The notes under the pieces: generated by a model
The model's input: the letters and a program-made list of their open reading frames with translations, nothing else
Told to the model about the DNA's origin: nothing
The model's database searches: none
Program-made: the position numbers and the translations under genes
Shown: positions 9,711 through 56,580 of the stretch, piece by piece
How the letters are laid out: every line of letters starts with the position of its first letter
How positions within the stretch are numbered: position 1 is the first letter of the stretch
Source of the DNA: Thiohalobacter sp.
GTDB taxonomy: Bacteria > Pseudomonadota > Gammaproteobacteria > DSM-19610
DNA length: 61,436 nucleotides
Assembly (NCBI GenBank): GCA_026984835.1
Contig: JALSRI010000100.1
Coordinates: 1-61,436 of the forward strand
Direction of reading: 5' to 3'

Positions 9711-9731
9711 GTTCATCTCCTGTTCGAGCAA

Positions 9732-9808
9732 GATGAGCGCCGTTGTTCTGTTTCCGCTGATCCCCGAGCCTGACGGGTGGTCCCGCTGCAGCGCCCCTCG
9801 GGGAGGCA
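9732..9808 (-). promoter_or_regulatory. SAH riboswitch in the ahcY leader
   Basis: Read on the minus strand, the leader contains CCCCGAGGGGCGCTGCAGCG, then CCCGTCAGGCTCGGGG, and then AACAACGGCGCTCAT. These are the conserved blocks of the SAH riboswitch: CGAGG-GCGCTGC, CAGGCTCGG and AACGGCGCTC. CCCCGAG pairs with CTCGGGG to form P1, CGGG pairs with CCCG to form an internal stem, and GGGCGC pairs with GCGCTC for the pseudoknot. It ends about 22 bases before the ahcY start, suggesting control of ribosome access. SAH binding normally turns the gene on. A possible -10 (TATCAT, 9818-9823) lies just upstream inside repeat copy 2. Confidence 0.9.
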
Positions 9809-34846: not shown

Positions 34847-34904
34847 ATGAAGGACGCCCGGCGGCCAGGCACCTGCAATGAACAATGTCAGGACAGGAGT
34901 CGCA

Positions 34905-37900
34905 ATGAACCCAGTGCAGCTGAAATCCGTGCCCTCCGGCGTCGCCGATATCCCCCTGCAGGACGCTTCCCTGGATATCTGGGACAAGAAGTACCGCTTG
35001 AAGCGCAAGGATGGCAGCGTCATTGACACCAGCATCGACGCGACCTACCAGCGCGTGGCGCGCGCCCTGGCCGACGTCGAGCTCACGCCGGAGAAGCGCG
35101 AGCACTGGTACGAGCAGTTCCTCTGGGCGCTGCGCCACGGCGCCATCCCGGCCGGCCGCATCACCTCCAACGCCGGGGCCCTGGAGCACAAGCCGGCCAC
35201 CTCCACCATCAACTGCACCGTGTCCGGCACCATCCGCGACTCCATGGACAACATCCTCGAGCGCGTGCACGAGGCCGGCCTGACGCTCAAGGCCGGCTGC
35301 GGCATCGGCTACGAGTTCTCCACCCTGCGCCCGCGCGGCGCCTACGTGTCGGGCGCCGGCGCCTACACCTCCGGCCCGCTGTCGTTCATGGACATCTACG
35401 ACAAGATGTGTTTCACCGTGTCCTCGGCCGGCGGCCGCCGCGGCGCCCAGATGGCGACCTTCGACGTCGGCCACCCGGACGTCATGGACTTCATCCGCGC
35501 CAAGCGCGAGGACGGCCGCCTGCGCCAGTTCAACCTGTCGCTGCTGGTCACCCGGGAGTTCATGCAGGCGGTGAGCCGCGACGCCGAGTGGAAACTGGCC
35601 TTCCCCATCAGCGAGAAGGAGGTCGAGGACGACGACATCGATTTCCGCGACCCCGACCAGGTGGTGTGGCGCGAATGGCCGCACCACCAGGGTTATGTCA
35701 CCAACGACGCCGGCCTGGTGGCCTGCAAGGTCTACAAGACCCTCCCCGCGCGGCGCCTGTGGGACATGATCATGGCCTCCACCTACGACTTCGCCGAACC
35801 GGGCTTCATCCTGATCGACAAGGTCAACGAGATGAACAACAACTGGTTCTGCGAGAACATCCGCGCCACCAATCCCTGTGTTACGGCGGATACCTGGGTG
35901 CACACCATGGACGGGCCGCGACAGGTGCGCGATCTCGTCGGTCGTCGCTTTGTTGCCAGGATCGATGGCCAGGCGCACCCAAGCGGTGCGGAAGGGTTCT
36001 TCCGGACGGCGACCAAACAGGTGTTTCGCCTGCAGACGGCGGAAGGGTACAGGCTGCGGTTGACTGGTGATCACAGGGTGCGGCGTATCAGCCGCTTCAC
36101 CCGCTACCGGACGGAGACCGAATGGTGCGAGGCGCGCGAGTTGCGACCCGGTGACCGGGTGCTGCTCAATGACCATCGGGCCGCTCCCGAATGGGCCGGC
36201 GAGTACACGCAGGAACAGGGCTACCTGCTGGGCCTGCTCGTCGGCGACGGCACCTTCAAGCGCGACAAGGCGGTGCTCTCGGTGTGGAAGCCGGCTGCGG
36301 TCGCAAACGGCGTGGATGCGGTGTTGTCCCGCGGTGTCGAGGCGGTCATGGCGGAAGCGTTGCGGGCCGCGCGCACCCTGCCGCACCGGGCCGATTTCAA
36401 CGGGTGGATGGCAGTTCCCGGTCGCAATGAATTCCGCCTGTCGCTGGCGGCGCTGAAGGCTCTGGCACTGGAGACGGGGATGGAGCCGGGACGCAAGGCG
36501 GTCACGCCCCGCCTGGAACAGGCATCCAGCGACTGTTGTCGCGGATTCCTTCGGGGCCTGTTCGATTCCGACGGTTCGGTACAGGGCGATCAGGGTAAGG
36601 GTGTCAGCGTGCGCCTCGCCCAGTCCGACCTCGATTGCCTGGAAGCGGTTCAGCGGATGCTGTTGCGGCTCGGGGTGGCCTCGCGAATCTATCGTGACCG
36701 CCGTAGAGACGGTGTGAGCAGCCTGCCGGACGGTCGGGGAGGCTATGCCGAATACAGGGTGCGGGCGCAGCACGAGCTGGTGGTCAGCGGCGAGAATCTG
36801 CTGCATTTCCATGAAACGATCGGTTTCGCCGACAGCGAAAAGGCCGCCCGACTGGCGCGTCTGCTGGCCGCTTACCGGCGCAGGCTCAACCGCGAGCGGT
36901 TCGTGGCGCGTGTTGTCGCCGTGGAGCCCGATGGCTGCGAAGACGTCTATGACGTCCAGGTGCCGGGCATCAATACCTTCGATGCCAATGGCCTGCATGC
37001 ACACAACTGCGGCGAACAACCCCTGCCCCCCTACGGCTCCTGCCTGCTCGGTTCCATCAACCTCACCAAGTTCGTGCGCGACGCCTTCACCGATGAGGCC
37101 CGCTTCGACTGGGACGAGTTCCGCAAGGTGGTGGGGGTGTTCACCCGCATGCTCGACAACGTGGTGGAGATCAACGGTCTGCCGCTGGAGCAGCAGCGCG
37201 ACGAGATCCTGCGCAAGCGCCGCCACGGCATGGGTTTCCTGGGCCTGGGCTCCACCCTGACCATGCTGCGCATGGTGTATGGCTCGTCGGATTCCACTGC
37301 CTTCACCGAACGCGTCAGCCGCGAGCTGGCGCTGGCCGGCTGGCACGCAGCGCTGGAGCTGGCGCGCGAGAAGGGCCCGGCGCCCATCATGGAAGAGGAG
37401 TTCGAGGTCAGCGCAGAAATGCTGCGCAAGCGGCCGGAAATGCAGCGCGACGGTTACCAGGTCGGCGACCGGGTCAAGGGCAAGGTGCTGCACGCGCGCT
37501 ACAGCCGTTACATGCAGCAACTGGCCGGCGTCGAGCCGGAGCTGGTGGATGCGCTCGCCGAGACCGGGGCGCGCTTCACCCACCACAGTTCCATCGCACC
37601 CACGGGCACCATTTCCCTGTCGTTGGCCAACAACGCCAGTAACGGCATCGAGCCCAGCTTTGCCCATCACTACTTCCGCAACGTCATCCGCGAAGGCAAG
37701 AAGAGCAAGGAGAAGGTCGACGTCTATTCCTTCGAACTGCTGGCCTACCGCGAGCTGGTCAACCCGGAGGCGGTGCCCTTCGCCGAGGAGCCGGACAAGC
37801 AGTTGCCCGACTACTTCATCTCGGCCGACGACATCTCGCCCAAGGCGCACGTCGACATCCAGGCCGCCGCCCAGAAGTGGATCGACTCGTCCATTTCCAA

Positions 37901-38189
37901 GACCGCCAACGTGCCGACCGAATATCCCTTCGAGGACTTCAAGGACATCTACCTGTATGCCTACGAGCAGGGACTCAAGGGCTGCACCACCTTCCGCTTC
38001 AACCCCGAGGCCTTCCAGGGCGTGCTGGTCAAGGAGAAGGATCTGGAGAACACCACCTACCGCTTCGTGCTGGAAGACGGGTCGACGCTGGAGGTCAAGG
38101 GCAACGAGGAAATCGAGTACGACGGCGAGACCCATACCGCGGCGAATCTCTACGATGCGCTGAAGGAAGGCTACTACGGCAAGTTCTGA
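34905..38189 (+). CDS. nrdJ: Class II (B12-dependent) ribonucleotide reductase NrdJa with intein
   Basis: The 1094-residue precursor starts at ATG 34905, fixed by AGGAG at 34895-34899; an in-frame ATG at 34878 lacks such a site. The mature extein is about 717 residues. It shows PATSTINCTVSGTIRDSM, TLKAGCGIGYEFSTLRP, AGGRRGAQMATFDVGHPDV, the interrupted active-site NP/CGEQPLPPYGSCLLGSINLTKF, and THHSSIAPTGTISLSLANNASNGIEP. It reduces ribonucleotides by adenosylcobalamin radical chemistry with or without oxygen. The catalytic cysteine is in CGEQ, directly after the intein. The C-terminal part is supplied by nrdJb downstream. Confidence 0.95.
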   Translation: MNPVQLKSVPSGVADIPLQDASLDIWDKKYRLKRKDGSVIDTSIDATYQRVARALADVELTPEKREHWYEQFLWALRHGAIPAGRITSNAGALEHKPATSTINCTVSGTIRDSMDNILERVHEAGLTLKAGCGIGYEFSTLRPRGAYVSGAGAYTSGPLSFMDIYDKMCFTVSSAGGRRGAQMATFDVGHPDVMDFIRAKREDGRLRQFNLSLLVTREFMQAVSRDAEWKLAFPISEKEVEDDDIDFRDPDQVVWREWPHHQGYVTNDAGLVACKVYKTLPARRLWDMIMASTYDFAEPGFILIDKVNEMNNNWFCENIRATNPCVTADTWVHTMDGPRQVRDLVGRRFVARIDGQAHPSGAEGFFRTATKQVFRLQTAEGYRLRLTGDHRVRRISRFTRYRTETEWCEARELRPGDRVLLNDHRAAPEWAGEYTQEQGYLLGLLVGDGTFKRDKAVLSVWKPAAVANGVDAVLSRGVEAVMAEALRAARTLPHRADFNGWMAVPGRNEFRLSLAALKALALETGMEPGRKAVTPRLEQASSDCCRGFLRGLFDSDGSVQGDQGKGVSVRLAQSDLDCLEAVQRMLLRLGVASRIYRDRRRDGVSSLPDGRGGYAEYRVRAQHELVVSGENLLHFHETIGFADSEKAARLARLLAAYRRRLNRERFVARVVAVEPDGCEDVYDVQVPGINTFDANGLHAHNCGEQPLPPYGSCLLGSINLTKFVRDAFTDEARFDWDEFRKVVGVFTRMLDNVVEINGLPLEQQRDEILRKRRHGMGFLGLGSTLTMLRMVYGSSDSTAFTERVSRELALAGWHAALELAREKGPAPIMEEEFEVSAEMLRKRPEMQRDGYQVGDRVKGKVLHARYSRYMQQLAGVEPELVDALAETGARFTHHSSIAPTGTISLSLANNASNGIEPSFAHHYFRNVIREGKKSKEKVDVYSFELLAYRELVNPEAVPFAEEPDKQLPDYFISADDISPKAHVDIQAAAQKWIDSSISKTANVPTEYPFEDFKDIYLYAYEQGLKGCTTFRFNPEAFQGVLVKEKDLENTTYRFVLEDGSTLEVKGNEEIEYDGETHTAANLYDALKEGYYGKF
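35877..37007 (+). other. Intein with LAGLIDADG homing endonuclease in NrdJa
   Basis: This 377-residue in-frame insertion begins with Cys1 (CVTADTWVHTMDG, block A) and has block B LTGDHRVR. Two dodecapeptide LAGLIDADG motifs are YLLGLLVGDGTF and FLRGLFDSDGSV. It ends YDVQVPGINTFDANGLHAHN followed by Cys+1. All splice residues (C1, B-block His, penultimate His, last Asn, C+1) are present, so splicing should work, and both endonuclease motifs keep an acidic residue. It sits between NP and CGEQPLPPYG, at the radical cysteine, a known RIR1 intein site. Confidence 0.95.
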
Positions 38190-40367: not shown

Positions 40368-42089
40368 ATGTACGAAAAGCACTTTGGCCTGACAGAACGC
40401 CCCTTTTCCATTGCGCCCGATCCGCGCTTCCTCTATATGAGTCCGCGCCACCGCGAGGCGCTGGCGCACCTGTTGTACGGGGTCGGCGAGGGTGGCGGCT
40501 TCGTCCAGCTCACCGGCGAGGTCGGCACCGGCAAGACCACGGTATGCCGCTGCCTGCTGGAGCAGCTGCCGGGGGACGTGGACGTGGCGCTGATACTGAA
40601 TCCGCGCCTGACCGGCCTGGAGCTGATCGCCAGTCTGTGCGACGAACTGGGCGTCGACTACCCGGCCGGCACCACCAGCACCAAGGTGCTCATCGACGCG
40701 CTCAACCAGCGGTTGCTGGAGGCGCACGCCGGCGGGCGGCGTACGGTGATGATCATCGACGAGGCCCAGAACCTGAGCGCCGAGGCGCTGGAGCAGGTGC
40801 GGCTGCTGACCAACCTGGAGACCAACCGCGAGAAGCTGTTGCAGATCATTCTCATCGGTCAGCCCGAACTGCGCGACCTGCTGGCGCGCGATGACCTGCG
40901 CCAGCTCTCCCAGCGCATCACCGCCCGCTGCCACCTGGTGCCCATCGGCCGCGCCGAGACGGCGGCCTATATCCGCCATCGGCTGCAGGTCTGCGGCGCC
41001 ACCGAGGCCCTGTTCAGCGAACGCGCCGTGGACCGGGTGCATCGCCTGTCCGGCGGTGTGCCGCGCCTGATCAACGTCTTGTGCGACCGCGCCCTGCTGG
41101 GCGCCTTCGTGGAAGGCAAGCGGCGCGTCGACCCGGCCGTGGTGCGCCGCGCCGCCCGCGAGGTGCTGCCCGAGGAGGGCGTGGGGCGCAGCGGCCGGCG
41201 CTGGTGGCTGCTGGCGGCGGCGATCGGCTTCGTGGCGCTCCTGATCGCCTGGCAATACCCGCGCGTGAATCGCCTGCTGCGGGTCGCCGATCCCGGCCTG
41301 GCGCTCGAAGAACCCCGCCCGGTAACACCCGCGGTGGCGTCCGCCACCGGGGTTGCGCCCGCTGCCCCGCAGCCGGCCCCGGTCCCCGTTGGCGGCGTCG
41401 GCGACGATGCCCTGGCCGGGGTGGCGGCGCTGGAAGGGCAGCCCGCCGCGACCGCCGACGCGTCGTTGCAACAGGTGCTGGAACAGGCGTCCCCGCGGGC
41501 GTCCGCACATGCCTGGCAGGCGCTGTTCGGGCGCTGGCGACAGCAGACGAGCGCCGCCACCGACGCCCGCGCCTGTGCCCGGGCGGTGCAGGTCGGGCTG
41601 CGCTGCCTGCGGCAGGGCGGCAGCTGGCAGGCGGTGCTGCGCTACGACCGGCCGTTGCTGATACTGCTGACCGCGCCCGGCGGGCGCTGGGTGCCGGTGC
41701 TGGTGGAGTCCGTGCAGGGGGACCAGGCTCACGTGCAGGTGGACGGCCGCTACCTGGATGTCGGCATCGATGAACTGCTCGCGCGCTGGTATGGCGAATA
41801 CCGCCTCTTGTGGAAGCCGCCGCCCGGCGGGCGCGCCGTGCTGACGCCGGGCGACCGCGGCCCCGGGGTGCGCTGGTTGCGCGAACGGCTCAGGGAAGCG
41901 ACCGGTGCGGCCGCCATCGGCCGCGATCCGGACCTGTTCGACCAGGGGCTCAAGGTGCTGGTGCAGCAGTTCCAGCGCTCCCAGGATCTGGACACGGACG
42001 GTGTCGCCGGGGCGCGCACCATCATCCGTCTCAATACCGTCACCCGCCAGCCGGGCATTCCGCGCCTGCTGCTGACCGGCCAGGGTTGA
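40368..42089 (+). CDS. gspA: GspA/ExeA-type ATPase with peptidoglycan-binding C-terminus
   Basis: This 573-residue protein starts MYEKHFGLTERPFSIAPDPRF, the canonical ExeA start. Walker A is LTGEVGTGKTTV (about residue 48) and Walker B is VMIIDEAQNLSAEAL. After an AAA domain of about 270 residues comes one TM helix (WWLLAAAIGFVALLIAWQYP), a C39-like papain-fold region and a C-terminal peptidoglycan-binding module (GDRGPGVRWLRERLREAT, LDTDGVAGARTIIRLN). GspAB inserts the type II secretin through the peptidoglycan. It lies 5 bp upstream of gspB; no gspC-O genes are present. Confidence 0.92.
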   Translation: MYEKHFGLTERPFSIAPDPRFLYMSPRHREALAHLLYGVGEGGGFVQLTGEVGTGKTTVCRCLLEQLPGDVDVALILNPRLTGLELIASLCDELGVDYPAGTTSTKVLIDALNQRLLEAHAGGRRTVMIIDEAQNLSAEALEQVRLLTNLETNREKLLQIILIGQPELRDLLARDDLRQLSQRITARCHLVPIGRAETAAYIRHRLQVCGATEALFSERAVDRVHRLSGGVPRLINVLCDRALLGAFVEGKRRVDPAVVRRAAREVLPEEGVGRSGRRWWLLAAAIGFVALLIAWQYPRVNRLLRVADPGLALEEPRPVTPAVASATGVAPAAPQPAPVPVGGVGDDALAGVAALEGQPAATADASLQQVLEQASPRASAHAWQALFGRWRQQTSAATDARACARAVQVGLRCLRQGGSWQAVLRYDRPLLILLTAPGGRWVPVLVESVQGDQAHVQVDGRYLDVGIDELLARWYGEYRLLWKPPPGGRAVLTPGDRGPGVRWLRERLREATGAAAIGRDPDLFDQGLKVLVQQFQRSQDLDTDGVAGARTIIRLNTVTRQPGIPRLLLTGQG

Positions 42090-42094
42090 GCCTC

Positions 42095-42772
42095 ATGTCC
42101 TATATATTGGAAGCCTTGAAGAAAGCCGAGCAGCAGCGTGAACTGGGCAGCGTTCCGGGCATCGACGCGGCCCAGGAGACGCCGCCTTCGCCGCGCCGCA
42201 GCCGCTGGTGGTGGGTGCTGGGCGGCCTGCTGCTGCTGAACCTGGCGCTGGTCGCGGTGCTGATGTGGCCGGCGCCGGCGCAGCGCGGCGCCCCGGTCGC
42301 CGGCGTGGGCCGGGACCTGCCGCCGCGCCCGCCACCGGCCGGCGCGGATGGCCGTGTCGATCCGGCGGTCGCGGCGGTGAAGCCGTCTCCCCCGCTGCGG
42401 TCGACGGCGGCCGCGGCGGCGCCGCCACCCCCCCCTGTGCCACCACCGGCAGCCCGCAGTGCTGCCGTGGTCGCAGCGCCGCCCCCGGTTCCGGCACCAC
42501 CGCCGCGCGAGGCATCGCCCCGGCCGGCGCCGGCCCGGTCGCTGCCCGTCTGGCCGCAGATACCCACGGCCCTGTTCGACCGCCTGCAAGGCGGCCTGCA
42601 GCTCGACGTGCACGTCTACGACCGCCAGCCCGGGCGGCGTTTCGTCCTGCTCAACCTGCGCAAATACCGGGAAGGAGAGCAGCTTCGCGAAGGCCCGCTG
42701 CTGGAAGAGATCACCCCGGAGGGGGTCATCCTGTCGTTCCAGGGCCAACGTTTCCGGGTGCTCGCACAATAG
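42095..42772 (+). CDS. gspB: GspB-like general secretion protein
   Basis: This 225-residue protein starts MSYILEALKKAEQQRELGSV, the diagnostic N-terminus of GspB/ExeB. A TM helix (WWWVLGGLLLLNLALVAVLM) is followed by a long Pro/Ala-rich periplasmic linker and a compact C-terminal domain (LQLDVHVYDRQPGRRFVLLN). The last residues, EGVILSFQGQRFRVLAQ, match the conserved GspB tail. It should pair with GspA in a membrane complex. The long Ala/Pro segment is low complexity and normal for the family. Confidence 0.9.
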   Translation: MSYILEALKKAEQQRELGSVPGIDAAQETPPSPRRSRWWWVLGGLLLLNLALVAVLMWPAPAQRGAPVAGVGRDLPPRPPPAGADGRVDPAVAAVKPSPPLRSTAAAAAPPPPPVPPPAARSAAVVAAPPPVPAPPPREASPRPAPARSLPVWPQIPTALFDRLQGGLQLDVHVYDRQPGRRFVLLNLRKYREGEQLREGPLLEEITPEGVILSFQGQRFRVLAQ

Positions 42773-42824
42773 TAACCCGGCATACTGGGTTGCCGGGTTG
42801 ATAACACAAGAACAAGGAATGAAC

Positions 42825-44333
42825 ATGTACCGTACCCTTGGCGCCCTGTGCCTGCTGCTGGCCGCTTGTGCGGCACCCCCGGTCGCCTCGGCCCGAAGCG
42901 ATACCACCCATCGCCTGGTGCTGCGCATCGCGGACAGCGACAGACGCGTCCTGCAGTCGGTGCGCAGCCGCCAGCCGCTGCCGGGACTGAGCCTGAACGG
43001 ACAGCCGTTGACGCTGGTGCACCGCCCGGACGCGCACACGGTGGTGGTGCGTCTGCCGCGGGAAATGACGCTCGCCGAGGCCCGGCAGATGGCCCGGGAA
43101 CTGCTTGCCGATCCGATGGTGGAAGCGGCCGAACCCGATCGGCGCGTCTACCCGGCGTTCACGCCCAACGACACCTTCTACCCGGAGCAGTGGTACCTGT
43201 TCGACGCCAACAGCGGCATCAACGCCGACCTCGCCTGGGATCGCGGCACCGGGTCTTCCGCCGTCGTCATCGCCGCCCTGGACTCCGGCATCCTGCCGCA
43301 CGCCGACCTCGACATGGCGCGGGTGCTGCCCGGCTATGACTTCATCAGCGATCCGGTGACCGCCAACGACGGCGATGGCCGTGACCCGGATCCCACCGAC
43401 CCCGGCGACGCCGTCGCGGCGGGCGAGTGCGGGCCCGGCGAGCCGGCCGAGCCCAGCAGCTGGCACGGCCTGGCCGTGGCCGGCGTCATGGTGGCCACCC
43501 CCGACAACAGCCTGGGCGTCGCCGGCATCGATTTCGGCGCCCGGCTGCTGCCGGTGCGGGTACTGGGCAAGTGCGGCGGCTTCCTGTCCGATATCGTTGC
43601 CGCCATGCGCTGGGCGGCCGGCCTGCCGGTGCCCGGCGTTCCGCTCAATACCACGCCTGCGCGCGTCATCAACCTCAGCCTGGGCGGCGAGGGCGCCTGC
43701 ACCGACCGGGAGCAGAGCGCCATCGACGAAGTCGTCGCCGCCGGCGCCGTCGTCGTCGTGGCGGCCGGCAACGAGGGCGGCGACGTATCCCTGCGTACCC
43801 CCGCCAATTGCCGGGGTGTGATCACGGTGTCGGCGGTGGGCCGGTCCGCGGACCTGGCGTCCTACGCCAACTTCGGCGCCGCCGTCGACCTCAGCGCGCC
43901 GGGCGGCAGCGGTGGCCAGGGGATCATGACCTTGTCGAACAACGGCAGCCCGGCGCCGTCCACGGATGCCCTGGCCCTGGTGCTCGGCACCAGTTTCGCC
44001 ACGGCGCAGGTGTCGGCGGTGTCGGCACTGATGCTGGCGCTGAACGACTCGCTGGATGCCTGCACCGTGGAGCAGACACTGAAGGCAACGGTGCGCGCCT
44101 TCCCCGCCGGTTCCACCTGCACCACCACGCGCTGCGGGGCGGGGCTGCTGGATGCCGACGCCGCCCTGGCCGCGTCCCTCGATCCGGCTGCCGCCGTCGC
44201 CGCCTGCAGTGCCGGCGGCGGTGGCGGCGGTGGTGGTGGCTGCAGCCTGGCGGCGGGTGGAAGGCCGGATCCGCTGTGGCTGCTGCTGGCGCTCGCCACC
44301 CTGCTGCGGCGCTGGCGCAGCGGACGTCGGTGA
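42825..44333 (+). CDS. Secreted S8 (subtilisin) peptidase with C-terminal sorting-type tail
   Basis: This 502-residue protein has a signal peptide with a Cys (LGALCLLLAACAAPPVASA). An inhibitor-I9-like propeptide precedes the catalytic domain. The triad is Asp in IAALDSGILPHADLD, His in SSWHGLAVAGV and Ser in LGTSFATAQVSA, with the oxyanion Asn in AAGNEGGD. The C-terminus is a Gly9 run, Cys, then a hydrophobic helix (DPLWLLLALATLL) and RRWRSGRR, a GlyGly-CTERM-like sorting tail. AAGGA six bases before ATG 42825 sets the start; ATG 42819 is possible. Adjacent GspAB suggests type II export. Confidence 0.87.
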   Translation: MYRTLGALCLLLAACAAPPVASARSDTTHRLVLRIADSDRRVLQSVRSRQPLPGLSLNGQPLTLVHRPDAHTVVVRLPREMTLAEARQMARELLADPMVEAAEPDRRVYPAFTPNDTFYPEQWYLFDANSGINADLAWDRGTGSSAVVIAALDSGILPHADLDMARVLPGYDFISDPVTANDGDGRDPDPTDPGDAVAAGECGPGEPAEPSSWHGLAVAGVMVATPDNSLGVAGIDFGARLLPVRVLGKCGGFLSDIVAAMRWAAGLPVPGVPLNTTPARVINLSLGGEGACTDREQSAIDEVVAAGAVVVVAAGNEGGDVSLRTPANCRGVITVSAVGRSADLASYANFGAAVDLSAPGGSGGQGIMTLSNNGSPAPSTDALALVLGTSFATAQVSAVSALMLALNDSLDACTVEQTLKATVRAFPAGSTCTTTRCGAGLLDADAALAASLDPAAAVAACSAGGGGGGGGGCSLAAGGRPDPLWLLLALATLLRRWRSGRR

Positions 44334-44337
44334 ACCC

Positions 44338-44796
44338 ATGCTGAAAGCCATACAGGACTTCTTCCGTACGCGACTGCGGGCCGCCGGACCGGAAGGCCGT
44401 CACGACGACAAGGCGCTGCAACTTGCCACCGCGGCGCTGTTGTTCGAGATGGTGCGCGCCGATCACGAAGCGGGCAGCGACGAACGCGAGGTCGTCGAGC
44501 GGTCGCTGCGCAGCACCTTCGACCTGGACGAGAGCGAGACGCAGGCGCTGGCCGCACTGGCGGAGCAGGAGGCCGAGGAGGCCGTTTCCCTGTACCAGTT
44601 CACCGCCCTGATCAATCGTCATTTCACGCCGCAGGACAAGGTGCGGGTGGTGGAGATGCTGTGGCGGGTGGCCTGGGCGGACGGTCGCCTGCATCCCTAC
44701 GAAGAGGCTCTGGTGCGCAAGATCGCTGACCTAATCCACGTCCCGCATCGCGATTTTATCCAGGCAAAACACAGGGTTCAGGGCCAACAGTCCTGA
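44338..44796 (+). CDS. TerB-like protein (COG4103)
   Basis: This 152-residue soluble protein starts MLKAIQDFFRTRLRAAGPEG. It carries the TerB pattern: LQLATAALLFEMVRADHEAG, DEREVVERSLRSTFDLDESE, WRVAWADGRLHPYEEALVRK, with acidic metal-binding-type residues (D-x-E, D-G-x-L-x-x-x-E). This family is often annotated as tellurite resistance TerB or DUF533-like; function is unknown here. It lies 4 bp after the protease stop. An inverted repeat GGTTCAGG/CCTGAACC (44775-44799) overlaps its stop codon. Confidence 0.8.
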   Translation: MLKAIQDFFRTRLRAAGPEGRHDDKALQLATAALLFEMVRADHEAGSDEREVVERSLRSTFDLDESETQALAALAEQEAEEAVSLYQFTALINRHFTPQDKVRVVEMLWRVAWADGRLHPYEEALVRKIADLIHVPHRDFIQAKHRVQGQQS

Positions 44797-44930: not shown

Positions 44931-45299
44931 TCAGACCATGTCTTTCAGGCCCTTCAGCGCCAGCACCTTGACCACGTTGCGCGCCGGCTTGGCCTTGAAC
45001 ACCATCGGCTCGCCCGTGAACGGATTGACACCCTTGCGCGCCTTGGTGGCGGGTTTGCGAACGACCTTGATCTTCATCAGGCCGGGCACCGTGTACACGC
45101 CCGGACCGCTGCGTTTCAGGTCGCGCTTGATCAGCATCGTCATTGCCTCGAACACGGCGCCGACGTCCTTCTTGGTAAGCCCGGTCTTGTCTGCGATATA
45201 CGAGAAAGTCTCGGCTTTGGTGGTGGGTTTCTTTACCGCCTTGGCAGATGCCTTTTTCTTGGCGGATTTCTTTGCGGCGCTCTTTTTCTTCACGGCCAT
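44931..45299 (-). CDS. HU-family DNA-binding protein with histone-H1-like lysine-rich N-terminus
   Basis: This 122-residue protein has two parts. Residues 1-28 (MAVKKKSAAKKSAKKKASAK and beyond) are a Lys/Ala tail like histone H1. Residues 29-122 are an HU/IHF fold: SYIADKTGLTKKDVGAVFEA, PGVYTVPGLMKIKVVRKPAT, the arm ARKGVNPFTGEPMVFKAKPA and a terminal VVKVLALKGLKDMV. It likely compacts or bends DNA in the nucleoid. The ATG follows TAGGAGCTGAGTGC. HU proteins with such tails are known in other bacteria and can be regulatory; the specific role here is unknown. Confidence 0.9.
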   Translation of the reverse strand: MAVKKKSAAKKSAKKKASAKAVKKPTTKAETFSYIADKTGLTKKDVGAVFEAMTMLIKRDLKRSGPGVYTVPGLMKIKVVRKPATKARKGVNPFTGEPMVFKAKPARNVVKVLALKGLKDMV

Positions 45300-45782: not shown

Positions 45783-48700
45783 ATGATGGGAGCTGCAAAA
45801 AAACTCTTGGACAAGAAAGCGTTGCGGGATTTCATCCCAATCAATGCATTATCCCCGGCACACATCGAAGAGATTTCCAAGAAGGCCGTCATCGAGCAGG
45901 TTCGTTCCGGTCGCTACGTGTTCAAGGCGGGTGACAGGGACAACCAGTCGGTCTACCTGCTGGAGGGCAAGGTGGAACTGGTGGGCGACGGCCGCAAGGT
46001 GGTGGGCACCGTCACCGCCGGCACCGACAGCGCGCGTCATCCCCTCGCGCACAAGCAGCCACGCCAGATCTCGGTACGCGCCAGCGGAGCCGTGACGGTC
46101 GCGCGCGTCGATTCGAGCCTGTTGGATGTGCTGCTGACCTGGGACCAGTCGTCCGGATACGACGTGGTCGAGATCGACTCCGCAGAAGAGGGCGAGGACT
46201 GGATGACCCGCATGCTCCAGTCCGAGGCCTTTCTCCGCCTGCCGCCGTCAAATATCCAGCAGTTGCTGATGCGCATGGATGCCGTCAGCGCCCGGGCCGG
46301 CGACGTCATCGTGCGGCAGGGCGACGAAGGCGACTATTTCTACATCGTCAAGAGCGGGCGCCTGGCAGTCAGCCGTCGGCCCTCCTCGCACGGCCGCGAC
46401 GTGGTGCTGGCGGAGCTGTCCGGCGGCGCCTGTTTCGGCGAGGAAGCCCTGGTTTCGGACAGCAAGCGCAACGCCACGGTGACCATGATCACCGACGGCT
46501 CCCTGATGCGTCTGGCCAAGAACGACTTCGATGAACTGTTGCGCACGCCGCTGGTGCACGAAATCGACTATCCCCAGGCGCAACGCATGATCGCCGAGGG
46601 GGCGGAACTGCTCGATGTGCGCCTGCCGGGTGAATTCGTCAACCAGTCCATCCGCGGCAGCCGCAACCTGCCGCTCTCCGCGCTGCGCGACCGGCTGTCG
46701 GAACTCGATAGCAGTCGCAAATACATCCTCTGCTGCGACACCGGGCGGCGCAGCGCTTCCGCTGCCTTCGTGCTCGGCCAGCGCGGCTTCGAAGTCTACG
46801 TGCTGGCCAACGGCCTGGCCGACGTGCCGTCGCAGGACCTCGAGAACCCCGATGCGCCGGTGCAGGACGGGTCGCCGCCGGAAGCCGAGGTCATACCTTT
46901 CGGCGCCGAGCCGGCCGCCGGCGGCCAGGACGACAGCGGCGGGCCCGTGCAGGCGGAGCTGGAGCAGGCGCGCCAGCGCATCGCCGAACTGGAGCGGCAG
47001 CTGCACGAGCAGGGCGCGGAGCAGCAGCGGTTGCAGGCGCGCATGGAAGAGGTGGAACAGGAAGCCAGCCGCCGCGATCAGGCGCGGCAGCAGGAGATCG
47101 AGCGGCTGCAGGCCGCGGCGGAGGCGGCGCGCGGCCAGCAGGACGGGCTGCTGGAGCAGCTGCGCAGCGAAAAGCGGCAACTGCAGGAAGCGCTGCACAC
47201 CGAGCAGCAACGTGCGTTGCAGGCCAGCCGCGAACTCGAGCGCGAGCTGTCCTCGGTGCGGGACGACTACCAGCAGCTGGGCCAGCGGGCCAGCGCCCTG
47301 GCCGGCGAACGCGATGCGGTGCGCGCCGAGCGCGACGAACTGCAGCAGAAGCTGGACGCCCTGCAGGCCGACCGGGAGCTCGCCAGTGGCGAGCAGGCGG
47401 CCCGGATCGAGGAACTGCGCGCCCGGCTGCAGGAGCGCGAAGCGGCGCTGCAGGAACAGCAGCAGGGTCGTACCGAGCTGGAAGCACGCCTGCAGGCGCA
47501 TCGGCAACAACAGGTCGAACTGGAAGCACGGCTGGAAGCGCAGGCCGACGAACTGGTGCGCCTGGAAGCAGCGCATACCGGTCTGCAGTCGCAGAATGAA
47601 GCGCTCGCGGTCGAGCGGGACGCGCTGCGCGGCAAACTGGAAGATGCGGCAGCCGCCAACCGCGCCCTGGCCGACGACAAGCAGGCCCTGCAGGCGCAAC
47701 TCGAGTCCGTGCAGGGCGAGCTGGGCGCGCTGGAGGCGGATCAGGGCAAGGCGCTGGCGGATCTCGAGCAGCGCCTGCAGGACGGCATCGCCGAACGCGA
47801 TGCCGCGCGCGAAGAGCTGCAGGCCGCTCGGCAGCGTCTCGCCGAGGCCGCGGAACGCGAACAGGCGCACGCCGGCCGGCTGCGCGAGCTGGAGGAGCGC
47901 CTGGATGCCGAACGTCGCGAACTCGAGTCCGATCTCGACACCGCCCGCCGGGCGCTGGCGCGCGCCCAGGGCGAGCAGCAGAACGTCCTGCGTGAACAGG
48001 GGCGGCTGACGGATGCGCTGCGCAAGGCGGAGCAGCGCATGGAGCAGCAGCAGCTCGAGCACGACAGCGAACTGCACCGCCTGCGCAAGGAGCTCGAAAA
48101 GGCCGGCGGCGAGGCGGACGCCGCGCTGGTGGCCGAGGTGGCGGCACTGGAATCGCAGCTCGGCGAGGTTCGCCAGCAGGCCGCTGCCCTGGAATCGGAA
48201 CTGAACGGCCTGCGGGCCGAGAAGGAGGATGCCCGGGGTGCCGCCGATACCCGGGTGACGGAGCTCGAACAGGAGCTTGCATCCCTGCAGCGGCAGCTGC
48301 AGCAGGCCCGGGACAGCGCGCGGCAGGCCGAACAGCAGCTGCTGGAAGCCAACCAGGCCGCCAACGAGGAAATGACCGTCAGGCTGGAGGCGGAAGAGGA
48401 AGCGCGTCGCCAGTTGCAGGGCGAGGTCGAGGCGTTGCGCGCCGGCCAGGACGAGCGTGGCCGCCGTGTGCTGGAACTCGAGCAGCAGCTCGAGGCCCTG
48501 CAGCAGGAACTCGCCCAGGCCCGTTCGGCGGCCGGGGATGCGCAGCAGCTGGCGGTGCTGGAACAGCAGCTGCAGGCCGGGGAACAGGCCAGGGAGGAAC
48601 TGGAAGCCCGCCTGCAACAGCTCGAAGAGGCGCGCGACGCGGCGCTGGGCGAGGCCGATGCGGCGCGCCAGGAGGCGGACCGCCTGCGGGCGGAAGCGGA

Positions 48701-50210
48701 AGTGGCGCGCGGCCTGGTGGACATGCAGGGCGCGGCCGCCGAGCCCGACCCGGTATTGCGCGACGAACTGGAACAGGCCCGCAAGGACGTGGAGCTGGCA
48801 GTGCGGCTGCGCAGCCAGGCCGAGGACAAGGCCGCCCGCCTGCAGGCCGAACTCGAGCGCCTGCAGCAGGCTGCTGCCGCCGGGGCGGGGGATGCCGGCG
48901 CCGGGTTCAGTGATTCGCGCCTGCGGGTGCCGTCGCTGGATGAGAACGATCCGGATGCGACGGCGCTCATGGATGCGGTGGTGGCCGACCCGGCCGGTGA
49001 CGAGAACTGGCAGGAGGACGACGAATCGCAGCACCAGGCAGCCCCGGCCCGCCTCATCGACGAAGAGGGCGACGCGGCCGCCGGCCGCGGCGGCAAACGG
49101 GTGCTGCCGATCCTGGTGCTCGTCGCCGCCGCCCTGGCTGTGGGCGGGTGGTGGTACCTGCAGCAGCCGGGGAGGGTGCCGCCGGCCCGGCCGGGCACAC
49201 TGGTGCCGGAGCGGGATGTCGGGCCTCCGCCAGCGTGGGGGCGGCGGGCGCCGGCGGCCGATGGCGAGGCGGGCGCCGGCCAGGCGTCCCGGCCTGCCGC
49301 GCCGGAACCGGCGGCGGCTGCGGGCGCACCGGACCACGCGGCAGCCGCCGCCGCGCCCGGGCCGGTCGCCGAAGAGGTCGCGCCCGAAGATACGGGGCCC
49401 GAAGAGATGGCGCAAGAAAACACGGCGCCCGAAGATACGGCGCCCGGGCCGCAGGCTGAGGCAGCCGGGTTGCCGCGGCCACTGGGCAGCTTCAGCGACC
49501 CGCTGGCGGACGGCGGGCGCGGCCCGCGCATGGTGGAACTGGCGGCCGACCGTTACGACATGGGCAGCGGACCGACCTCGCCGCGCTTCGAAGAACGGCC
49601 CCGCCACGGCGTCTCGCTGCGGCGTTTCGCCATCGGTGAACGTGAGGTCACTTTCGCCGACTACGACCGCTTTGCGCGCGCCACCGGCCGGGCTCTGCCC
49701 GACGACAGTGGCTGGGGGCGCGGTCGCCGGCCGGTCATCAACGTGAGCTGGGAAGACGCCGTTGCCTACACGCGCTGGCTGAGCGGGCAGACCGGCCGGC
49801 ATTACCGGCTGCCCAGCGAGGCCGAATGGGAATACGCGGCCCGCGCCGGTACCCGCAGCCGCTTCTGGTGGGGTGACGAGGCGGCGGATATCCCCGCCAA
49901 CTGCTTCGATTGCGGCAGTGAATGGGATGCGTCACGCACCGCGCCGGTGGCCAGCTTCGCAGCCAACGGCCTGGGTCTGTACGACACCGCCGGCAACGTG
50001 ATGGAGTGGGTGCAGGACTGCTACGTCGGCAGCTACCAGTCTGCACCGGACGACGGTTCTGCGGTGCTGGCCGGACCCTGCGCCACCCGCGTGGTGCGCG
50101 GCGGCGGCTATTCCAGTCCTTCCGAGCAGCTGCGCAGCGCCTCGCGCGCCGAACGCGACCCCGCCAGTCGTCTGGACAATCTCGGCTTTCGCGTCGCGCG
50201 CGACCTTTGA
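45783..50210 (+). CDS. Giant signalling protein: 2x cNMP-binding, rhodanese, coiled coil, TM, FGE-fold domain
   Basis: This is a 1475-residue protein. About 30-125 is a degenerate cyclic-nucleotide-binding domain. About 150-255 is a second one with the phosphate-binding FGEEALVSDSKRNATV. About 259-355 is a rhodanese domain with the active-site CCDTGRRSA. About 389-1035 is one continuous Glu/Gln/Arg-rich coiled coil. About 1106-1126 is a TM helix (VLPILVLVAAALAVGGWWYL), followed by a Pro/Ala linker. About 1248-1475 is an FGE/SUMF1-fold domain (GEREVTFADYDRF, YRLPSEAEWEYAARAG, DTAGNVMEWVQD, VVRGGGYS). The FGE catalytic cysteines are absent. The N-terminus should be cytoplasmic and the FGE domain periplasmic. 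No family name is known to me for the whole protein. Confidence 0.88.
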   Translation: MMGAAKKLLDKKALRDFIPINALSPAHIEEISKKAVIEQVRSGRYVFKAGDRDNQSVYLLEGKVELVGDGRKVVGTVTAGTDSARHPLAHKQPRQISVRASGAVTVARVDSSLLDVLLTWDQSSGYDVVEIDSAEEGEDWMTRMLQSEAFLRLPPSNIQQLLMRMDAVSARAGDVIVRQGDEGDYFYIVKSGRLAVSRRPSSHGRDVVLAELSGGACFGEEALVSDSKRNATVTMITDGSLMRLAKNDFDELLRTPLVHEIDYPQAQRMIAEGAELLDVRLPGEFVNQSIRGSRNLPLSALRDRLSELDSSRKYILCCDTGRRSASAAFVLGQRGFEVYVLANGLADVPSQDLENPDAPVQDGSPPEAEVIPFGAEPAAGGQDDSGGPVQAELEQARQRIAELERQLHEQGAEQQRLQARMEEVEQEASRRDQARQQEIERLQAAAEAARGQQDGLLEQLRSEKRQLQEALHTEQQRALQASRELERELSSVRDDYQQLGQRASALAGERDAVRAERDELQQKLDALQADRELASGEQAARIEELRARLQEREAALQEQQQGRTELEARLQAHRQQQVELEARLEAQADELVRLEAAHTGLQSQNEALAVERDALRGKLEDAAAANRALADDKQALQAQLESVQGELGALEADQGKALADLEQRLQDGIAERDAAREELQAARQRLAEAAEREQAHAGRLRELEERLDAERRELESDLDTARRALARAQGEQQNVLREQGRLTDALRKAEQRMEQQQLEHDSELHRLRKELEKAGGEADAALVAEVAALESQLGEVRQQAAALESELNGLRAEKEDARGAADTRVTELEQELASLQRQLQQARDSARQAEQQLLEANQAANEEMTVRLEAEEEARRQLQGEVEALRAGQDERGRRVLELEQQLEALQQELAQARSAAGDAQQLAVLEQQLQAGEQAREELEARLQQLEEARDAALGEADAARQEADRLRAEAEVARGLVDMQGAAAEPDPVLRDELEQARKDVELAVRLRSQAEDKAARLQAELERLQQAAAAGAGDAGAGFSDSRLRVPSLDENDPDATALMDAVVADPAGDENWQEDDESQHQAAPARLIDEEGDAAAGRGGKRVLPILVLVAAALAVGGWWYLQQPGRVPPARPGTLVPERDVGPPPAWGRRAPAADGEAGAGQASRPAAPEPAAAAGAPDHAAAAAAPGPVAEEVAPEDTGPEEMAQENTAPEDTAPGPQAEAAGLPRPLGSFSDPLADGGRGPRMVELAADRYDMGSGPTSPRFEERPRHGVSLRRFAIGEREVTFADYDRFARATGRALPDDSGWGRGRRPVINVSWEDAVAYTRWLSGQTGRHYRLPSEAEWEYAARAGTRSRFWWGDEAADIPANCFDCGSEWDASRTAPVASFAANGLGLYDTAGNVMEWVQDCYVGSYQSAPDDGSAVLAGPCATRVVRGGGYSSPSEQLRSASRAERDPASRLDNLGFRVARDL

Positions 50211-50244: not shown

Positions 50245-50331
50245 CGTTCCCCATGACTGCAGTGGAGCCCCGCTCGTGAACGCCGTCCCGCCGGCCCGGT
50301 GCGTTTGCGGGGCCGCGGACCGGCGCCGTCC

Positions 50332-50706
50332 GTGATCGTGCCAGGCAAGCCTGTCACAGCCCGCCTCGCGTTGTGCGCCCTGCGCGATCTGCCCGACCCG
50401 GGCAGCCGCGGCTTCAGCGTCGACACCCCGGCCGGACCGCTGGACCTGTTCCTGGTGCGCCAGGGGGCTCAGGTGCACGCCTACATCAACCGCTGCCCGC
50501 ACACCGGTGCGCCGCTGGACTGGGTGCCCGACCGTTTCCTGAGCCTCGATGGCGAGCACATCCAGTGCGCCACTCACGATGCCCGCTTCCGCATCGGTGA
50601 CGGCCTGTGCGTGGCGGGTCCCTGCCGCGGCGACCGGCTTCAGCCGCTGGAGCTGTGGGTCGAGGCGGGGCGGGTGTACCTGGAAACGGAGACAACGGAT
50701 GACTGA
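50332..50706 (+). CDS. Rieske [2Fe-2S] ferredoxin-type protein
   Basis: This roughly 124-residue protein contains both cluster-binding halves, CPHTGAP and CATHDARF (C-x-H...C-x-x-H), preceded by a beta-rich segment (DTPAGPLDLFLVRQGAQVHA). There is no signal peptide, so it should be cytoplasmic like bacterial Rieske ferredoxins. No ATG is available; GTG 50332 is chosen, and GTG 50299 or 50338 are alternatives without better ribosome-binding sites. Its end overlaps the next gene by 8 bp. It may supply electrons to an unidentified oxygenase or serve as a redox sensor; this is inference. Confidence 0.8.
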   Translation: MIVPGKPVTARLALCALRDLPDPGSRGFSVDTPAGPLDLFLVRQGAQVHAYINRCPHTGAPLDWVPDRFLSLDGEHIQCATHDARFRIGDGLCVAGPCRGDRLQPLELWVEAGRVYLETETTDD

Positions 50707-55436: not shown

Positions 55437-55776
55437 TACCTCCATGATCAAACTGCTGATACTTGTCTTTCCGGTCCTGCCGCGCCCGCGGGGACGGTGG
55501 CGGATCCGGTTAAGTACAGGCTGCTTGTCGGGTACGGTATTCGCTGTTCGACCCGCTTTGTCGATGCGCGGGTTCCAGACGTTGTCCGTGGCCGGTGGGC
55601 CGATCGTCTGGGCTCAGTTATAGGCCCATAAAGCGGATTATGCAAGCGCCGCGGGGGTCGGCCCCGCGGCCGGGACGAAGGCGCCGGCGGTATTTTCGAA
55701 ACAGGCTTTAATATATGAAAAAACAAACACTTGAGATGACGCTGGGGCGCGGTCGCCCGCTCCGGGGAGGGTGCCG
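55437..55776. other. Intergenic region upstream of djlA with a GC hairpin
   Basis: This 340-bp spacer holds a strong hairpin at 55648-55670 (GCCGCGGGG-GTCGG-CCCCGCGGC) without a U-tract, and an AT-rich segment at 55710-55733 that may hold the djlA promoter. No gene was supported; a short frame starting MIKLLILVFPVLPRPRGR near 55446 lacks a ribosome-binding site. Confidence 0.4.
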
Positions 55777-56580
55777 GTGAGCTGGTGGGGGAAGCTGTTG
55801 GGCGGCGCTTTCGGTTTCATGCTGGCCGGCCCCCTGGGTGCCCTGATCGGTGCCGCCTTCGGTCACAACTTCGACAAGGGGGTGGAGTCCGGCCGGGGCG
55901 GCGGCCGCTTCGCACCCGGCGCCCAGGAGCGGGTGCAGACGGCGTTCTTCACCGCCGTGTTCTCGGTCATGGGCCACCTGGCCAAGGCCGACGGCCGCGT
56001 GTCGGAAGACGAGATCCGGCTGGCGCGCGAGGTGATGGCGCGCATGAACCTGAACGAGGACATGCGCCGCGCCGCCATCGAGTTGTTCAACCAGGGCAAG
56101 GCGACGGATTTCCCGCTCGACGAGGTCGTCGGCCAGTTCCGCACCGAGTGCCGGCGCCGCCGCCATCTCATGCAGATGTTCCTGGAGATCCTGCTGCACG
56201 CGGCCTATGCCGACGGCACGCTGCATCCGCAGGAGCGCCGCATCCTGGAGCATATCCGCGAACGGCTGGGCTTCTCGGCCGCCGAGTTCAGCCACCTGGA
56301 GGCGCTGGTGCGCAACGCCCGCCATTTCGCCGGCGGCGCCCGCGGGGAGCGGGTGTCGCCGCGGCAGGCACTGCGCGAAGCCTACGAAGTGCTGGGCGTG
56401 GCGCCAGGCGCCAGCGACGCCGAGGTCAAGAAGGCCTACCGGCGCCTGATGAACCAGCACCACCCCGACAAGCTCGTCTCCAAGGGCCTGCCGGAGGAGA
56501 TGATCAAGCTGGCCACCGAGAAGACCCAGGAGATCAAGCAGGCCTACGAGACCATCAAGGCCGGCCGGAAAAACCCCTAG
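55777..56580 (+). CDS. djlA: DjlA-type membrane co-chaperone (TerB + J domain)
   Basis: This 267-residue protein starts at GTG 55777 (SWWGKLLGGAFGFMLAGPLG), six bases after GGGGAGG; GTG 55771 is too close to it. A glycine-rich N-terminal TM segment leads to a TerB-like domain (VMGHLAKADGRVSEDEIRLA, AAYADGTLHPQERRILEHI). A C-terminal J domain follows (LREAYEVLGVAPGASDAEVK, with HHPDKL carrying the HPD triad). DjlA stimulates DnaK near the inner membrane and is linked to envelope stress signalling. Confidence 0.92.
   Translation: MSWWGKLLGGAFGFMLAGPLGALIGAAFGHNFDKGVESGRGGGRFAPGAQERVQTAFFTAVFSVMGHLAKADGRVSEDEIRLAREVMARMNLNEDMRRAAIELFNQGKATDFPLDEVVGQFRTECRRRRHLMQMFLEILLHAAYADGTLHPQERRILEHIRERLGFSAAEFSHLEALVRNARHFAGGARGERVSPRQALREAYEVLGVAPGASDAEVKKAYRRLMNQHHPDKLVSKGLPEEMIKLATEKTQEIKQAYETIKAGRKNP

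Follow-up and report, generated by a model that had tools for sequence, protein, structure and literature searches.

Cyclic AMP in bacteria is known chiefly through CRP and its control of transcription. Fusions of cyclic-nucleotide-binding (CNB) domains with rhodanese domains have been on record since 2007 (PMC2246266), and a stand-alone CNB-CNB-rhodanese protein of about 355 aa is common in Gammaproteobacteria. cNMP-binding domains and sulfur-transfer proteins are also combined in the family 2 encapsulins, in which the 2B members are shells with cNMP-binding domains and the 2A members are shells with a cysteine desulfurase cargo and rhodanese genes (PMC8346489). On the periplasmic side the nearest described protein is PvdO, which is required for the final oxidation of pyoverdine; the purified protein showed no activity, and no cofactor could be detected in it (PMC6206403).

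The gene analysed here lies in 61,436 nucleotides of DNA from Thiohalobacter sp. (contig JALSRI010000100.1), and this whole stretch is referred to as the window. The gene is a single open frame of 1475 aa (45783-50210, + strand) whose product carries, from the N- to the C-terminus, a degenerate CNB, a competent CNB, a rhodanese, a helix with heptads, a transmembrane (TM) helix, a linker and an FGE/SUMF1-fold domain. An earlier sequence-only reading had proposed this architecture and it holds, i.e. Pfam finds the domains in the same order within one frame (cNMP_binding twice, Rhodanese at residues 266-346, FGE-sulfatase at 1248-1473), every match being above cut-off. The same reading knew of no named family of this kind. 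Beyond the CNB-rhodanese fusions mentioned above, our results agree with it: no family model spans the whole giant protein, and the literature search found no paper on the whole architecture, even if a 2023 survey of the rhodanese superfamily may list the fusion. The giant protein is apparently undescribed as a whole, and all of its parts are known folds.

Features of the locus (coordinates in the window, strand, description):
40368..42772, +, GspA/ExeA-type ATPase gene and GspB gene (AAA + PG_binding_1, T2SSB)
44152..44796, +, TerB-domain protein, neighbour (PF05099)
44931..45299, -, HU-like DNA-binding protein, divergent neighbour (PF00216)
45783..50210, +, whole gene, CNB-CNB-rhodanese / coiled coil / TM / linker / FGE-fold (1475 aa; 45786 is the likelier start)
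45894..46127, +, CNB1, degenerate, no FGE..R phosphate-binding cassette (PF00027, 37 bits)
46284..46544, +, CNB2, cassette FGEEALVSDSKRNATV intact with E220 and R229 (PF00027, 80 bits)
46578..46820, +, rhodanese domain, loop CDTGRRS, catalytic C318 at 46734-46736 (PF00581, E 7e-12)
46947..48872, +, coiled-coil region, residues 389-1030, of which 389-987 are proline-free (heptad z = 14 vs shuffles)
48660..48977, +, conserved juxtamembrane module LRAEAEVxRGLVDMQ ... NVEVAVRLRxQAE ... IPSLDENDP (24-protein alignment)
49101..49157, +, predicted single transmembrane helix, residues 1107-1125, GGKR just before it (hydropathy 2.01)
49158..49487, +, predicted periplasmic linker, Pro/Ala/Glu-rich, about 110 aa (43-159 aa in relatives)
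49488..50207, +, FGE/SUMF1-fold domain, no catalytic Cys; C1374, C1377, C1413 and C1433 invariant (PF03781, E 7e-53)
50299..50706, +, Rieske [2Fe-2S] protein, directly downstream (PF00355)

The head of the giant protein resembles the stand-alone CNB-CNB-rhodanese proteins (37-51% identical in the aligned set), in which E220, R229 and C318 are invariant too, but these proteins lack the coil, the TM helix and the FGE domain and are found at another locus. The tandem CNB fold is shared with the PKA regulatory subunit and PKG, and one CNB of the giant protein has the canonical cassette; the differences are that the giant protein has no known kinase partner, that its other CNB is degenerate and that a rhodanese is fused to the pair. 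With PvdO and the FGE/SUMF1 family it shares the fold and the motif GNVxEWVxDCY, and the alignment indicates that PvdO, like the giant protein, is devoid of the catalytic Cys pair. Unlike PvdO, the domain described here forms the C-terminal, membrane-anchored end of a giant protein, and it falls under the PvdO family cut-off. The family 2 encapsulins, in contrast, are HK97-fold shell proteins, and this fold is absent from the giant protein.

The family alignment shows that the N-terminus MGAAKKL is kept across the family, which suggests that the second ATG, at 45786, is the true start. A promoter scan upstream of the gene gave no signal above chance. A role in anti-phage defence was considered and rejected, since the PADLOC models gave no match to the giant protein at 1e-5.

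The predicted cytoplasmic head and its probable ligand

The sequence-only reading had counted two cyclic-nucleotide-binding domains, and Pfam indeed detects PF00027 twice, but the two copies are not equivalent. CNB1 is degenerate, and the FGE..R cassette is absent from the corresponding residues (77-86) in every group aligned. CNB2 carries the phosphate-binding cassette FGE-x-AL...R, i.e. the canonical FGE..AL..R motif (PMC2246266), except that E221 takes the place of the usual hydrophobic residue. Among the heads with complete frames, taken over all architectures, E220 is kept in 104/108 and R229 in 107/108. The rhodanese is even more uniform, as both C318 and D278 are present in 108 of the 108 heads; the cysteine is the first residue of the active-site loop (CDTGRRS against CxxGxRS), so that the active type read earlier from CCDTGRR is upheld. 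The structural model of the head (pLDDT 81) matches the tandem CNB modules of PKG and the PKA regulatory subunits, which the CNB pair resembles in sequence as well as in fold, and its pTM of 0.52 means that the packing of the CNBs and the rhodanese is not reliable.

As to the ligand, class III cyclase is absent from the own genome of the window, and an orphan CNB without a messenger was considered on this ground; it was rejected once a search of 13 window-family genomes turned up a class I adenylate cyclase in 12, the own genome being one of them. Because of this cyclase, cAMP is likely available. DsrA scores above cut-off in the own genome and dissimilatory sulfur metabolism is therefore present. 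Thiohalobacter is a known sulfur oxidiser (PMC6504805), and the head carriers with names include Thiohalobacter and metagenome-assembled genomes (MAGs) labelled Thiogranum and Sedimenticola.

The rod, the membrane helix and the predicted periplasmic domain

The windowed heptad score averages 0.43 over residues 389-1030, 14 s.d. above the 0.21 (sd 0.015) obtained when their letters are shuffled. This score is taken as the evidence for the coil, since the Fourier test is equivocal at period 3.5 (power 2.6, and 12.2 at 3.55), as is expected given register breaks. The coil that the sequence-only reading put at about 650 residues is thus present but slightly shorter, about 600-640 aa. The span of 95 nm deduced at the time is not a conserved length, as the proline-free stretch varies from 420 to 866 aa among the relatives, roughly 60-130 nm of rod at 0.15 nm per residue. 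Divergence is free in the mid-coil, and in two relatives with near-identical ends the alignment of the coil is heavily gapped. Such variation in length speaks for a spacer rather than a ruler, and so does the combination of a variable coil with a conserved membrane-proximal element.

K and R residues, summed over 22 proteins, number 55 in the 20 residues before the TM helix and 25 in the 20 residues after it, so the N-terminus of the giant protein is predicted to be inside and the C-terminus out. As a prediction, this is the one-helix topology given in the sequence-only reading, whose suggestion of a scaffold or tether between the envelope and the sensing of sulfur and cyclic nucleotides agrees with the anatomy and comes near to our own best guess.

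The model of the FGE domain (pLDDT 73.5, pTM 0.81) has PvdO as its nearest fold and FGE as the next (TM 0.72 to PvdO 5hha, 0.64-0.67 to 2q17). PvdO is the best match in sequence as well, with a score that remains below the cut-off of the PvdO model NF051459 (151 vs 500 bits). Both catalytic cysteines of FGE are absent from all 33 FGE-bearing proteins compared, as had been noted for the window protein from its sequence, and four other cysteines are invariant in the same 33/33. The domain is not a formylglycine-generating enzyme. Given that purified PvdO was inactive, with no cofactor detected, we are unsure whether an FGE fold without the catalytic Cys has enzymatic activity, and the name of the fold therefore gives no certain function for this domain.

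Relatives and gene neighbourhood

Relatives were sought with the globular ends of the giant protein as queries. The full architecture is intact in 32 relatives, 14 of them within the window's own family and the rest from named and class-wide loci. Together with the protein of the window this makes 33 in which head, coil and FGE domain are combined, and at least 13 taxonomic families of Gammaproteobacteria are represented. The giant protein is kept intact across many Gammaproteobacteria. Within the own family the heads are 63-74% identical, and the frames are 1450-1732 aa long unless the contig ends first; in one relative (G018, 71% complete) the frame begins at the rhodanese, and Thiogranum (G007) yielded a stand-alone head only. 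The pairwise identities of the head and the FGE domain co-vary (r = 0.81), which is expected if the domains were inherited as one protein. The head itself is present in 108 of the 232 sampled genomes of Gammaproteobacteria. Other relatives have the coil only, or the coil and TM helix with a different tail.

Trees were used to ask whether the FGE fusion arose only once. In a first tree the FGE forms and their near kin formed one group (SH-aLRT 91); a larger tree did not recover one FGE group, yet did not reject it (AU p = 0.187). In Thiohalobacter thiocyanaticus the gene occupies the same locus but its product has neither TM helix nor FGE domain, so the periplasmic end is dispensable in this species. 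The orthologues of a Thiohalobacter and a related MAG (L080, L079) finish in GGLVAGLFGGRRRREES where the TM helix and FGE domain would otherwise follow, and thus naturally lack the membrane and periplasmic parts. One genome has two coil-bearing homologues near each other on opposite strands (L184, L187). A sequence titled Klebsiella pneumoniae (L137, MAG MH-09jul19-253) clusters with uncultured environmental Gammaproteobacteria and is probably a mislabelled MAG.

The order at the loci of FGE-bearing proteins is TerB, HU, the giant-protein gene, often a PfkB-family kinase, and Rieske. The TerB gene is found upstream in 22/33, the divergent HU-like gene in 23/33, and a co-oriented Rieske gene lies downstream in 21/33, as opposed to 0/76 of the stand-alone forms in each case, and these neighbour counts are lower bounds as the flanks are short at some loci. 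The PfkB kinase gene lies in the same stretch at many FGE loci and is missing from the window. The linkage of Rieske and PfkB may reflect stable gene order alone, and any functional tie of the giant protein to Rieske, PfkB, TerB or HU is put forward here as an inference.

Several further genes of the window were noted. A subtilase (S8) gene (42459-44333, +), kept in the window family, lies between GspB and TerB, and a TerB-DnaJ fusion protein (55771-56580, +) is family-syntenic at 65-75% identity. An adenosylcobalamin-dependent ribonucleotide reductase (NrdJ; 34878-38189, +) contains an intein with a LAGLIDADG domain, and a relative (L048) aligns with it over its full length (79% identity over 1098 aa). 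A SAH riboswitch aptamer scores above the Rfam gathering score at 9728-9805 (-). Elsewhere, the stand-alone CNB-CNB-rhodanese genes (L089-L155) are often convergent to a PilZ-holB-tmk-mltG-pabC stretch (names read by eye).

Competing readings and a proposed mechanism

The explanation that we favour, tentatively, is that a cAMP-responsive sulfurtransferase head is joined by a membrane tether to a periplasmic receptor or redox domain. The protein would be a single-span inner-membrane protein with a cytoplasmic N-terminus, in which CNB2 would bind a cyclic nucleotide, most likely cAMP, with CNB1 as its degenerate partner, and ligand binding would govern a rhodanese carrying sulfane sulfur on C318. 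A long coiled-coil rod, probably a dimer and differing in length between relatives, would carry the head and act as a spacer. It would end in the conserved juxtamembrane segment, followed by the only TM helix and by a flexible linker. The periplasmic PvdO-type FGE-fold domain, presumably rich in disulfides, might bind a ligand or a partner or perform redox chemistry. A cAMP-responsive sulfurtransferase or persulfide head could in this way be coupled to an envelope partner, and electrons or sulfur might be exchanged between the giant protein and the Rieske protein encoded next to it. Points against this explanation are the dispensable periplasmic end in Thiohalobacter thiocyanaticus, the unreliable packing in the head model, the inactivity of PvdO after purification and the chance that the Rieske and PfkB linkage is gene order only.

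A different explanation would be a pure scaffold, with the CNB and rhodanese folds as mere binding modules and the protein organising an inner-membrane complex or the cell pole. The great and variable length of the coil suits this, as do those relatives in which the coil is followed by a different tail or by no tail at all, but a C318 kept in 108/108 heads, among them 76 short stand-alone proteins, exceeds what a binding module needs, and we consider a pure scaffold rather unlikely. The periplasmic end invites yet another possibility, a two-sided enzyme in which a PvdO-like oxidase is regulated by the cytoplasmic head and the Rieske protein. Although PvdO is the top match in both sequence and fold and the Rieske gene is next in 21/33, the score is far under the PvdO cut-off, the mechanism of PvdO itself is unknown, and an export signal is not evident in the Rieske protein (sequence read by eye), so that this reading appears improbable to us.

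The genes farther upstream point to an assembly or regulatory factor of type II secretion, acting with GspA and GspB: gspA-gspB lie there in at least 16/33 FGE loci, the own genome has three secretins, and GspB is known to attach the secretin both to peptidoglycan and to the inner membrane (PMC9239104). The AAA + PG_binding and T2SSB domains are found only in these neighbours and not in the giant protein. However, gspAB were not found at three loci (L052, L180, L182) that have TerB and HU and enough upstream sequence, which makes TerB, HU and the giant-protein gene the wider linkage, and a secretion role seems to us quite improbable. That separate proteins were misjoined in assembly, or fused by chance, would have accorded with an interrupted frame in the relatives, a test that the earlier reading had itself named. 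The frame is uninterrupted in all 32 relatives, from independent assemblies that include the single-contig G002 and G126, and the two ends diverge together; an assembly error or a pseudogene is rejected on these grounds, and the chance of a misjoin or accidental fusion is negligible.

Returning to the favoured cAMP-responsive head with its tether, a broader form can be imagined, i.e. a widespread and so far undescribed class of bacterial transmembrane signalling proteins. In these, a rod of roughly 60-130 nm would couple cytoplasmic cAMP and the persulfide state to a receptor or enzyme of PvdO type in the periplasm, and the Rieske protein and the sugar kinase would be operon partners; this we regard as possible but doubtful. 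If the proposed mechanism is true, it would constitute a direct post-translational link among a second messenger, sulfur chemistry and the envelope. We found no role assigned to the CNB-CNB-rhodanese head, and since it is present in nearly half of the sampled Gammaproteobacteria, its biochemistry bears on many genomes.
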